Made by a program: the position numbers and the translations under genes | The notes under the pieces: model-generated | What the model was told of the DNA's origin: nothing | Seen by the model: the letters and a program-made list of their open reading frames with translations, nothing else | Databases searched by the model: none | In this document: piece after piece, positions 26,575 to 51,287 of the stretch | How positions within the stretch are numbered: position 1 is the stretch's first letter | Layout: every line of letters starts with the position of its first letter | From: Kondoa malvinella | Taxonomy: Eukaryota > Basidiomycota > Agaricostilbomycetes > Agaricostilbales > Kondoaceae | Direction of reading: 5' to 3' | Length of the DNA stretch: 53,765 nucleotides | Assembly (NCBI GenBank): GCA_039545315.1 | Contig: BCIM01000012.1 | Location: 1 to 53,765, forward strand

Positions 26575-28894
26575 ATGGGCATCAACTCGCTCTCTTCCGC
26601 TTCTGCGACTTCCAAGTCTACCAGCAGCAGCAGCAGCAATGCGAACAAGCCTGGCGGATCCTCTCTGCGCACCATGCAACGCTCCTTTTCATCCTCTAGT
26701 TCCGTCTTGTCCAACAAACCAGTCAATGTTGTTCCGCTCGCAAACATGTTTGATCAAGACGACGATCAGCTCTCTGCGTCGCAATGGCCTGCTTCACCTC
26801 CAAAATCCATGAAGACCTCTCTACCTCCACCGTACAAAGCCAAACTTCCTGCTCCTGGAGCTCTCGGTAACGGTAAAGGAACCAACAATGCAGCTGCTTC
26901 CAATGCACATTGGGGAAAGAAGACCAGCGTGCTCAACAACCTCAACAAACCGATCTCTTCTTCCACTACTTCCAGTAAAGTCGCAACCAAGAAGCGTCAA
27001 TTCCCTTGGGAACACATGGCCGATCCAGTCAAGAAGCCTAAAGCTACTCTTAACGACAAAGGCGCTTACCATACTCTGTCTGGCGCTTCTACTTCCAACA
27101 ATGCTGCGGCCGGACCATCAAAGTCCAACCTCTTAATTGGCAAAGCTCTCAACATTAAGCAGAAAGTCTTGCTCTCTTCTGAACAGCAAAAGATTCTCAC
27201 CATGGTCGTGGACGAGCAAAAGAACATCTTCTTTACTGGTTCAGCAGGTACGCATCTTCTTGTACCTGTCATTACTTCTCACTAATCATTCTGTCTAGGC
27301 ACGGGCAAATCAGTCTTGTTGCGCGAGATCATCACTTCTCTCAAACAGAAATACCGACGACCTGACGCTGTCTCCGTCACTGCTTCAACTGGTATGGCAG
27401 CTTGCAACATTGGCGGCACCACCATCCATTCTTTTGCCGGCATCGGTCTAGGTATCGAACCAGTCCCAGAGCTCGTCAACAAGATTCGCAAAAACAGAAA
27501 AGCTGTTGCTCGTTGGCAGAAAGCCCAATGTTTGGTCATTGACGAAGTCTCCATGGTCGACGGCGAATTGTTTGACAAGCTTTCTGGAGTCGCTTGTGCT
27601 TTGAGGAAGAAGCCAGACAAGCCTTTCGGTGGTATTCAACTCATTGTTACCGGCGACTTTTTCCAATTGCCTCCTGTGTCCAAGAACGGCTCACCCAAGT
27701 TCGCCTTTGAAGCTAGAGAATGGAAGAATTGCATTGATCATACTGTCAACTTGACTCAGGTCTTTCGTCAAAAGGATACCGGTAGGTCTTGGACTCTCTA
27801 TCCACTGGAGATAGCTTACCGTATTATCTAGAATTCATCGACATGCTCAACGAAATGCGTTTCGGTCAACTTTCAGCTAAATCAATCCAAAAATTCAGGG
27901 CCCTCTCTCGCGAACCAAAATACCCAGACGATGGCATCATGCCTACTGAACTCTTTGCCCTCCGAAACGAAGTCGAACGCTCCAACTCTGGTCGATTGGG
28001 TGCTTTGTCCGGCGAGACGCAAACTTATGAAGCCGAGGACAGCGGCATGGAAAGTGGCCAAGCGTTGGAAAAGCTGCTGGACAATATGATGGCGCCCAGA
28101 AAGCTGGTTTTGAAGATTGGTTGTCAAGTCATGTTGATCAAGAACAGAGATGAAGGTTTGGTCAATGGCAGTACGGGTAAAGTGGTTGCTTTTGCTCCTC
28201 CTGGTGCTGCTCGACCCGGTGAAGAAGCGGATGACTCGGATGCAGAGAATGAGGATGTCAAGCCTAGAGTGAAAACGGAGACCAAGCTTGGCTTGACTGG
28301 CATGGCCAATCTCAAGAACACCATCACGAAGGGAACGTCAGAGCTGGTACCTTGGGTCGAATGGCAGCTACCAGATGGAAGGAAGCTATCTCCTGAACCG
28401 GTTGCTCGAGAAGAGTTTAAAATTGAGCAAGGCGAGATTGTCAAAGCGAGGCGAAAGCAGTTCCCAATGATTCTGGCTTGTATGTCTTCTCTTCTCGTCG
28501 CTATACATTGGTTTTGACAAATTTGCGACAGGGGCTGTCTCGATCCACAAGAGTCAAGGGCAAACGTTGAGCCGAGTCAAGGTCGATTTGGGCAAAGTCT
28601 TTGAAGCTGGTGAGTTGTCAATACGCTGTTTTGATAGACAGGAGGCTCATATAATCACGCTTAGGTCAATCTTATGTCGTATGCGCACTCTCGTTTCGTG
28701 CCTGTTCAAGCTAACGTCTCTCTGGCTTAGGCTTTGTCTCGAGCTACGTCTATGGAAGCCCTGCAAATCTTGCGCTTCGATCCATCCAAAGTATGTTTCT
28801 CCTTCATGCGCAACATCAATACTCATATCTATTGTAGGTCAAGTGCCATCCAAGAGTCAAAGCCTGGTCGGAGAGTCTAGAAACCCTATCTTAG
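26575..28894 (+). CDS. PIF1: DNA helicase Pif1
   Basis: 5'-3' helicase acting on telomeres, G-quadruplexes and mitochondrial DNA in yeast. The start [10 protein letters not shown] at 26575 opens a low-complexity Ser/Asn/Lys-rich N-terminus of about 200 residues. The helicase motifs then follow in order: QQKILTMV (Q-like), Walker A GSAGTGKS split by the intron after 27247, [17 protein letters not shown] (Ia), Walker [18 protein letters not shown] (III), VFRQKD, a VMLIKN block, [13 protein letters not shown] (V) and GQSYVALSRA (VI). Motif VI is assembled across a 14-nt exon, 28664-28677. A Ser/Asp-rich insert separates motifs IV and V. The protein ends with [17 protein letters not shown]. The N-terminus has no clear mitochondrial presequence. 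Confidence 0.93.
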
Positions 28895-51030: not shown

Positions 51031-51148
51031 AGGAAACAACGTGAGTCGAACACGTGACCTACCGCTATGCGTCGTTCTTCTGCGATATTGTGCCTACAGA
51101 CTGAAGCGATTGAGGATATAATAAGCCGTGAGTACGTCAAGTGCTCCC
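51031..51148 (-). tRNA. Probable tRNA-Cys-like gene or pseudogene; 5' half unresolved
   Basis: The 3' half is clearly tRNA: variable loop AGGTC, T-stem ACGTG/CACGT with perfect loop TTCGACT, acceptor strand TGTTTCC (complement of 51032-51038), U at position 73 and a T-run. The string TAGCGGTAGGTCA is identical to the plus-strand tRNA-Cys beside it. The only upstream match for the acceptor stem is GGGAGCA at 51142-51148, which pairs 7/7 with two G-U pairs, but it is followed by C instead of the near-universal U8. I could not fold a D-arm or a proper anticodon stem. Either a diverged pseudogene or a gene with more than one intron. Confidence 0.45.
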
Positions 51149-51150
51149 AT

Positions 51151-51281
51151 GGAGACATAGCTCGTGAGTTTTGATTTAGTGCCAACTAACACCAATTGAT
51201 TGGTTTACAGAGTGGTTAGAGCAACCGCCTGCAGAAATGCAACCTAGCGGTAGGTCAGGAGTTCAACTCTCTTTGTCTCCT
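51151..51281 (+). tRNA. tRNA-Cys(GCA) with two introns
   Basis: Acceptor stem GGAGACA (51151-51157) pairs 7/7 with TGTCTCC (51274-51280), with U73 at 51281, the cysteine discriminator. T-arm AGGAG-TTCAACT-CTCTT is canonical. Anticodon stem ACCGC/GCGGT encloses CT-GCA-G, then an 11-nt intron (51235-51245) at the normal 37/38 site; the intron contains TGC able to pair with the anticodon. The D-arm is interrupted: TAGCTC (51158-51163), then 51164-51210, then AGTGGTTAGAGC. Joining the flanks gives TAGCTCAGTGGTTAGAGC, the textbook D-arm and Pol III A box with A14, G18, G19 and A21. The mature tRNA would be about 72 nt before CCA addition. Cys assignment rests on GCA anticodon plus U73. Confidence 0.88.
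51164..51210 (+). other. Spliceosomal-type intron inside the tRNA-Cys D-arm
   Basis: 47 nt, beginning GTGAGT, with a consensus branch CTAAC at 51186-51190 and ending TTTACAG; branch A lies 21 nt before the 3' end. These are the same signals and length as the mRNA introns of this genome. Its removal by the GT-AG rule restores the D-stem and loop exactly. No bulge-helix-bulge structure of the tRNA-endonuclease type is visible. Confidence 0.8.
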
Positions 51282-51287
51282 TTTTTT
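51281..51287 (+). terminator. RNA polymerase III terminator of tRNA-Cys
   Basis: Seven T directly after the acceptor stem. The first T doubles as the discriminator base. Confidence 0.85.

Follow-up and report, generated by a model that had tools for sequence, protein, structure and literature searches.

A tRNA-Cys gene of Kondoa malvinella is split by a probable spliceosomal intron and is one of at least 16 tRNA genes with mRNA-type inserts in its genome

The window analysed here is a stretch of 53,765 nucleotides that forms bases 1-53765 of contig 12 in a 19.09-Mb assembly, and this assembly, the window's own genome, was the target of our searches. The PIF1 protein encoded in the window matches fungal proteins; of its 25 best matches, 23 come from Rhodosporidiobolus, Rhodotorula, Sporobolomyces or Microbotryum and 2 from Ceratobasidium, so that this one protein points to a probable pucciniomycete. 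Towards the end of the window lies a tRNA-Cys gene in three exons (Table 1), and re-reading the sequence confirmed the coordinates and anatomy that an initial annotation had assigned to positions 51151-51287. That annotation held that a cloverleaf forms only when 51164-51210 is removed and that a second insert of 11 nt sits at 37/38. ARAGORN reported no tRNA in the unspliced gene, and none in the whole window when run without its intron option; given the gene minus 51164-51210, it returned tRNA-Cys(gca) with an 11-nt intron at 37/38, in agreement with both claims. The covariance-model check that had been proposed gave a partial match for the unspliced gene, with the Rfam tRNA model reaching only 16.3 bits (gathering score 29) over 51201-51273 and missing the acceptor stem. 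Spliced in silico, the gene has what is expected of a functional one: a complete cloverleaf, anticodon GCA, U73 and a T-run. Among 2635 deletions of 30-80 nt in this gene, three shared the top cloverleaf score, among them exactly GTGAGT...TTTACAG. The description of this insert as mRNA-like, based on its GT-AG ends, its CTAAC and a length as in nearby mRNA introns, also stood.

Table 1. Features of the window and split tRNA genes located in the genome. Insert positions follow standard tRNA numbering and were assigned by hand.
Feature	Position	Strand	Remarks
tRNA-Cys(GCA) gene	51151-51281	+	insert 13/14; cloverleaf only once 47-nt insert is removed
tRNA-Cys exon 1	51151..51163	+	acceptor 5' strand to nt 13; first half of A box
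GT-AG insert at 13/14	51164..51210	+	47 nt, GTGAGT ... TTTACAG, inside A box
CTAAC, candidate branch site	51186..51190	+	A 21 nt from insert 3' end
tRNA-Cys exon 2	51211..51234	+	nt 14 to 37, anticodon GCA
Canonical-position (37/38) tRNA intron	51235..51245	+	11 nt, AAATGCAACCT; ARAGORN
tRNA-Cys exon 3	51246..51281	+	T arm with intact B box, acceptor 3' strand, U73
T6 run	51282..51287	+	Pol III-type terminator
TATAAT, TATA-like element	51117..51122	+	34 nt upstream of nt 1; only suggestive
tRNA-Cys-like 3' half	51031..51067	-	T arm, acceptor 3' strand, T73
Span of six introns, PIF1 helicase gene	27248..28837	+	comparison; introns 47-55 nt
Arg-TCT (L130)			insert 15/16
Ile-TAT (L137)			insert 15/16
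Gly-CCC (L108)			insert 15/16; missed by eye, found in GT-AG scan
Trp (L100)			insert 25/26
Leu-TAA (L129)			insert 25/26
Thr-CGT (L030)			insert 32/33
Leu-CAA (L135)			insert 32/33
Gly-TCC (L029)			insert 51/52
Asn (L085)			insert 51/52
Arg-TCG (L138)			insert 52/53
Pro-CGG (L065)			insert 53/54
Asp (L071)	C1:1715654	-	insert 53/54
Ala-AGC (L139, with L144)	C3:1148089		insert 57/58
Ala-AGC (L186)	C2:2579611		insert 57/58; found by spliced-tRNA query
Leu-CAG (L180)			insert 62/63

About 80 bp upstream of this gene, in the opposite orientation, the minus strand carries a Cys-like 3' half that is identical to the window tRNA-Cys at 30 of 36 nt. Its T arm is fully paired, and two pairs are changed on both sides (by eye). 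No 5' half for this piece was found on the minus strand up to the window end (2.7 kb), where the best score was 8.5 and that of a control 20.2. We also considered the piece as part of a complete split gene and rejected this, since the best GT-AG fit scored 21.1 and the best fit with any deletion 24.4, the latter lacking U33. The minus-strand half points to a second Cys gene, either a former one or one that persists in pieces. As genome-wide DNA queries missed this half, other diverged copies may have escaped them too.

A search of the assembly with the Rfam tRNA model gave 34 places, with 63 of 531 candidates scored in this heuristic procedure. Two patterns combining a B box with a T-run gave 149 places, of which 29 rows were already known, two were duplicates and one was the minus-strand place in the window. 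We read the sequences at the remaining 117 pattern places and at two low Rfam matches individually. Through these heuristic searches 45 tRNA genes were located, 29 unsplit (L001-L028 and L127) and 16 split by inserts of 47-55 nt outside 37/38, at nine positions from 13/14 to 62/63. Neither internal promoter box is spared: some split genes have the A box interrupted and others the B box. What had been annotated as one odd gene therefore kept its architecture and lost its singularity: it belongs to a genome-wide class with 15 more tRNA genes, two of which have inserts that start with GA and not GT. This class of tRNA genes with mRNA-type inserts is a real feature of the genome sequence. Standard tRNA finders miss such genes, as seen in the silence of ARAGORN on the window and in the Rfam search, which caught 6 of the 16 split genes, three of them below the cut-off.

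The census is incomplete: our searches of the genome did not turn up Tyr, His, Val-AAC, either kind of Met tRNA (initiator or elongator) or a few further tRNAs. Querying the genome with the Met, His, Tyr and Val tRNAs of human and fission yeast gave no matches, an uninformative outcome. A T-loop pattern for initiator Met had two matches, neither a tRNA, and an anticodon-arm pattern had five places with one mismatch, of which the two that were read are not tRNAs. ARAGORN names some unsplit genes otherwise than we do (L127 is Asp(atc) to the program and Lys-TTT by eye), and our argument uses counts, not names. Among the unsplit genes there are five pairs of identical copies in opposite orientation, 2-27 kb apart (L003/L004, L005/L006, L010/L011, L014/L015 and L026/L027). 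Elsewhere, at L131 (C2:1747480, plus strand, with L145), a tRNA-like 3' half consists of a T arm, an acceptor strand and a T-run, and no recognisable 5' half was found within roughly 580 nt read upstream. Several GTCGCTTCGCGACAG-like palindromes lie in the same region.

The inserts share the signature of mRNA introns. All 15 distinct inserts end in AG, and 14 of them, including that of the window tRNA-Cys, have GT...AG ends, with GTGAGT, GTAAGC, GTAAGT, GTATGT, GTTTGT, GTTAGT, GTACGG and GTTGGT at their 5' ends. The exception is an insert that reads GAATGT...ACAG and occurs as an identical 50-nt sequence at 57/58 in two Ala(AGC) genes; these genes share the insert but differ in their 37/38 introns and flanks. 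If the Ala insert began instead at the following GT, the T loop would be 11 nt long. The 15 distinct inserts span the same length range, 47-55 nt, as the six introns of the PIF1 gene, the sole protein gene compared. A CTNAY motif whose A lies 9-18 nt from the 3' end is present in 12 of 15 inserts, at 11-17 nt in these 12, whereas shuffled inserts had a mean of 1.9 and a maximum of 7, and none of 5000 shuffles reached 12. Since the choice of CTNAY was guided by the inserts themselves, a better comparison is with the six PIF1 introns, five of which have the motif in range. It is absent from this range in the Cys, Asp and Asn inserts; the CTAAC of the Cys insert, at 21 nt, is farther from the 3' end than most. 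In the assembly, N letters occur both within the Asp insert and in the flank downstream. No further copy of the window Cys insert was found in the genome, and the idea that the inserts are introners (multi-copy mobile introns) was rejected, as the 14 inserts queried (all but Gly(CCC)) matched only their own sites and the second Ala gene at E <=1.

The boundaries of the inserts were examined by scoring all 30-80-nt deletions for cloverleaf quality in 14 split genes, with gene ends set by eye. The GT...AG deletion ranked first or tied for first in 10 of the 14 and fell 0.4 to 1.6 points under the best in Gly-TCC, Trp and Leu-CAA; in Ala, the best-scoring deletions begin with GA or GG. In a scan of B-box places that required a GT-AG deletion of 45-56 nt, 12 of 118 places scored 26.1-31.0 and the other 106 at most 18.9, and the maximum for 60 shuffled sequences was 19.98. 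When the GT-AG requirement was dropped, the same scan covered 126 places: 12 reached 26.1-31.0, and the remaining 114 stayed at or below 20.6, most of them failing stem pre-filters. Top deletions in this unrestricted scan included GT-AG at 9 of the 12 places, and the GT-AG deletion was under the best by 0.9 in Trp, 0.4 in Gly-TCC and 3.0 in Gly-CCC. Given this separation of 12 split tRNAs, the window insert is not a chance fit. Both scans are blind to Leu-CAG, Arg-TCG and the two Ala genes, in which the B box or the 3' side is interrupted and which were read by eye or found by spliced-tRNA query. ARAGORN returned the expected tRNA for each of 15 spliced genes (the set without L186).

The split genes could be decayed copies, with intact genes elsewhere in the genome. 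An unsplit Asn paralog exists at C1:1590376, where the sequence GGTCGATAGTTCAA is identical to the junction that splicing would create in the split Asn gene, pieces that consist of a 3' half are known from the window minus strand and L131, and several isotypes are missing from the census; all of this favours decay. The cloverleaves, however, are intact after removal of the inserts (median score 29.5 for the 16 split genes vs 29.0 for the 29 unsplit genes), and the T-runs are retained. Asn was the exception among 14 spliced tRNAs queried against the genome, no intact copy being found for the other 13 kinds, and for Cys, Asp and Trp the split gene is the only one that our heuristic searches located. 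The initial annotation had asked whether another intact tRNA-Cys(GCA) exists. Two DNA queries (the spliced gene and a concatenated query) and a pattern recovered only exons 2-3 of the gene itself from the genome, in heuristic searches that could miss a diverged intact copy (one Cys query had a single candidate scored). The exact exon pattern had no matches in viral and prokaryote contigs. For the Cys gene we thus found, within these heuristic searches, neither the degraded fold nor the intact copy elsewhere that mark a tRNA pseudogene. A cell cannot do without tRNAs for Cys, Asp and Trp; as the same heuristic searches found no other genes for them, the split genes should work. We therefore regard decay as a highly improbable explanation.

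Two other alternatives accept working genes and differ in the machinery. A relaxed tRNA-splicing endonuclease might excise the inserts, a mechanism already suggested for the ectopic introns of Cyanidioschyzon, with GT-AG being incidental. Parts of two papers on eukaryotic tRNA genes do describe ectopic introns in the D and T arms (PMC4090602, PMC3978253), and the Leu(CAG) insert fits a full bulge-helix-bulge (BHB) with 4/4 central pairs and both inner pairs. Across the set, however, BHB motifs at the junctions are at chance, with at least 3/4 central pairs in 2 of 15 inserts vs a mean of 1.8 in shuffles of 14 inserts, and relaxed cleavage would leave the GT-AG ends (14/15), the branch motif and the uniform, mRNA-intron-like length unexplained. 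All 16 large inserts lie away from 37/38. Introns at 37/38 are also present in 15 of the 16 split genes as parsed (a 4-nt case in Thr is uncertain), and in 14 genes these inserts, 0-32 nt as parsed, include none with GT...AG and none of 47-55 nt. We give this alternative very little credence. In the remaining alternative, the intron would still be spliceosomal and Pol II would transcribe the split genes within longer spliced transcripts, from which the tRNAs are cut out later. Splicing by the spliceosome usually accompanies transcription by Pol II, and the A or B box is interrupted in the DNA of several split genes, both of which speak for this variant. Against it, T-runs lie at a Pol III-like distance behind the genes: a run of at least five Ts was present within 40 nt downstream of all 15 split genes examined, with the T5 of Gly-CCC directly after nt 73. 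Runs of T5 or longer are, moreover, mostly absent from the inserts, the longest within 14 inserts being T5 in Ile and T4 in five others, with shorter runs elsewhere. U6 is a Pol III transcript. Its intron-bearing precursors in fission yeast are spliced, judging from titles in the reference list of PMC5832005. TATA-like motifs within 70 nt upstream (about 50 nt for L186) do not discriminate between the groups, occurring in 7 of 15 split vs 14 of 29 unsplit genes. Overall, transcription by Pol II seems unlikely.

On this evidence we propose that the window insert is very probably a U2-type spliceosomal (mRNA-type) intron in a working nuclear tRNA-Cys gene, which is one of at least 16 split genes. 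Counting against this proposal are the GA start of the Ala insert, the three inserts lacking an in-range branch motif, the 3'-half Cys copy, and an uninterrupted U6: the U6 snRNA model of 105 positions had one match, of 116 nt (C14:428362-428477), which looks uninterrupted. The T5 of the Ile insert and the T4 runs of five others could also stop Pol III within the insert. As we envisage it, Pol III is the probable polymerase, aided by the intact B box and perhaps by the upstream TATA-like element, and transcription of the tRNA-Cys gene would run across both inserts as far as the T-run. The spliceosome would then take out the 47-nt GU...AG intron and so restore the D arm, and the restored fold would allow the tRNA endonuclease and ligase to excise the 37/38 intron. 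Most of the split pre-tRNAs probably need both the spliceosome and the tRNA endonuclease. We further consider it likely that in this lineage a large part of the tRNA set, with Cys, Asp and Trp among it, can mature only if Pol III pre-tRNAs are processed by the spliceosome alongside the tRNA endonuclease, that these inserts form a third class of nuclear tRNA intron gained repeatedly, and that translation here would depend directly on the spliceosome.

The spliceosome and the tRNA-splicing enzymes are viewed as distinct machineries, each acting on its own substrates. If our proposal is true, genes that need both tie translation capacity to the spliceosome, and Pol III can operate although an A or B box is interrupted. 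Very small genes, whose mature sequence can be predicted, would then also have gained introns independently, which would offer an unusual opportunity for studying the origin of spliceosomal introns.

Among the papers listed by searches of open-licence literature, none was seen to describe spliceosomal introns in tRNA genes, judging by titles and abstract openings, and the word stem 'spliceosom' is absent from the main text of a tRNA-intron review (PMC4090602). Fungal U6 snRNA and U3 snoRNA genes carry spliceosomal introns, and passages of PMC5832005 state that, among small structured RNAs, frequent interruption is known for these two alone. The genes described here resemble them in having short GT-AG introns with a branch site in small structured non-coding RNA genes. 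They differ in that the host is the tRNA family, with at least 16 genes affected and most carrying a second intron at 37/38, and in that U6 itself looks uninterrupted here, unlike in several other fungi (PMC5832005, in part). The kind of intron, spliceosomal in a small non-coding RNA gene, would thus be a known one, and the tRNA host family appears to be without a precedent that we could find. In the parts of PMC3978253 and PMC4090602 consulted, the ectopic introns of Cyanidioschyzon merolae are assigned to BHB-guided tRNA splicing, and those of the Guillardia theta nucleomorph are 3-24 nt long with an unknown mode of splicing. As in these two systems, D and T arms are interrupted, sometimes by more than one intron per gene, in a large share of the tRNA set; unlike the introns described in those parts, the inserts reported here are 47-55 nt long, have GT-AG ends and a branch motif, and show BHB motifs only at the level of chance. 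Canonical 37/38 introns of eukaryotic tRNA genes are also present in this genome, and the additional inserts sit elsewhere in the genes and carry mRNA-type signals.
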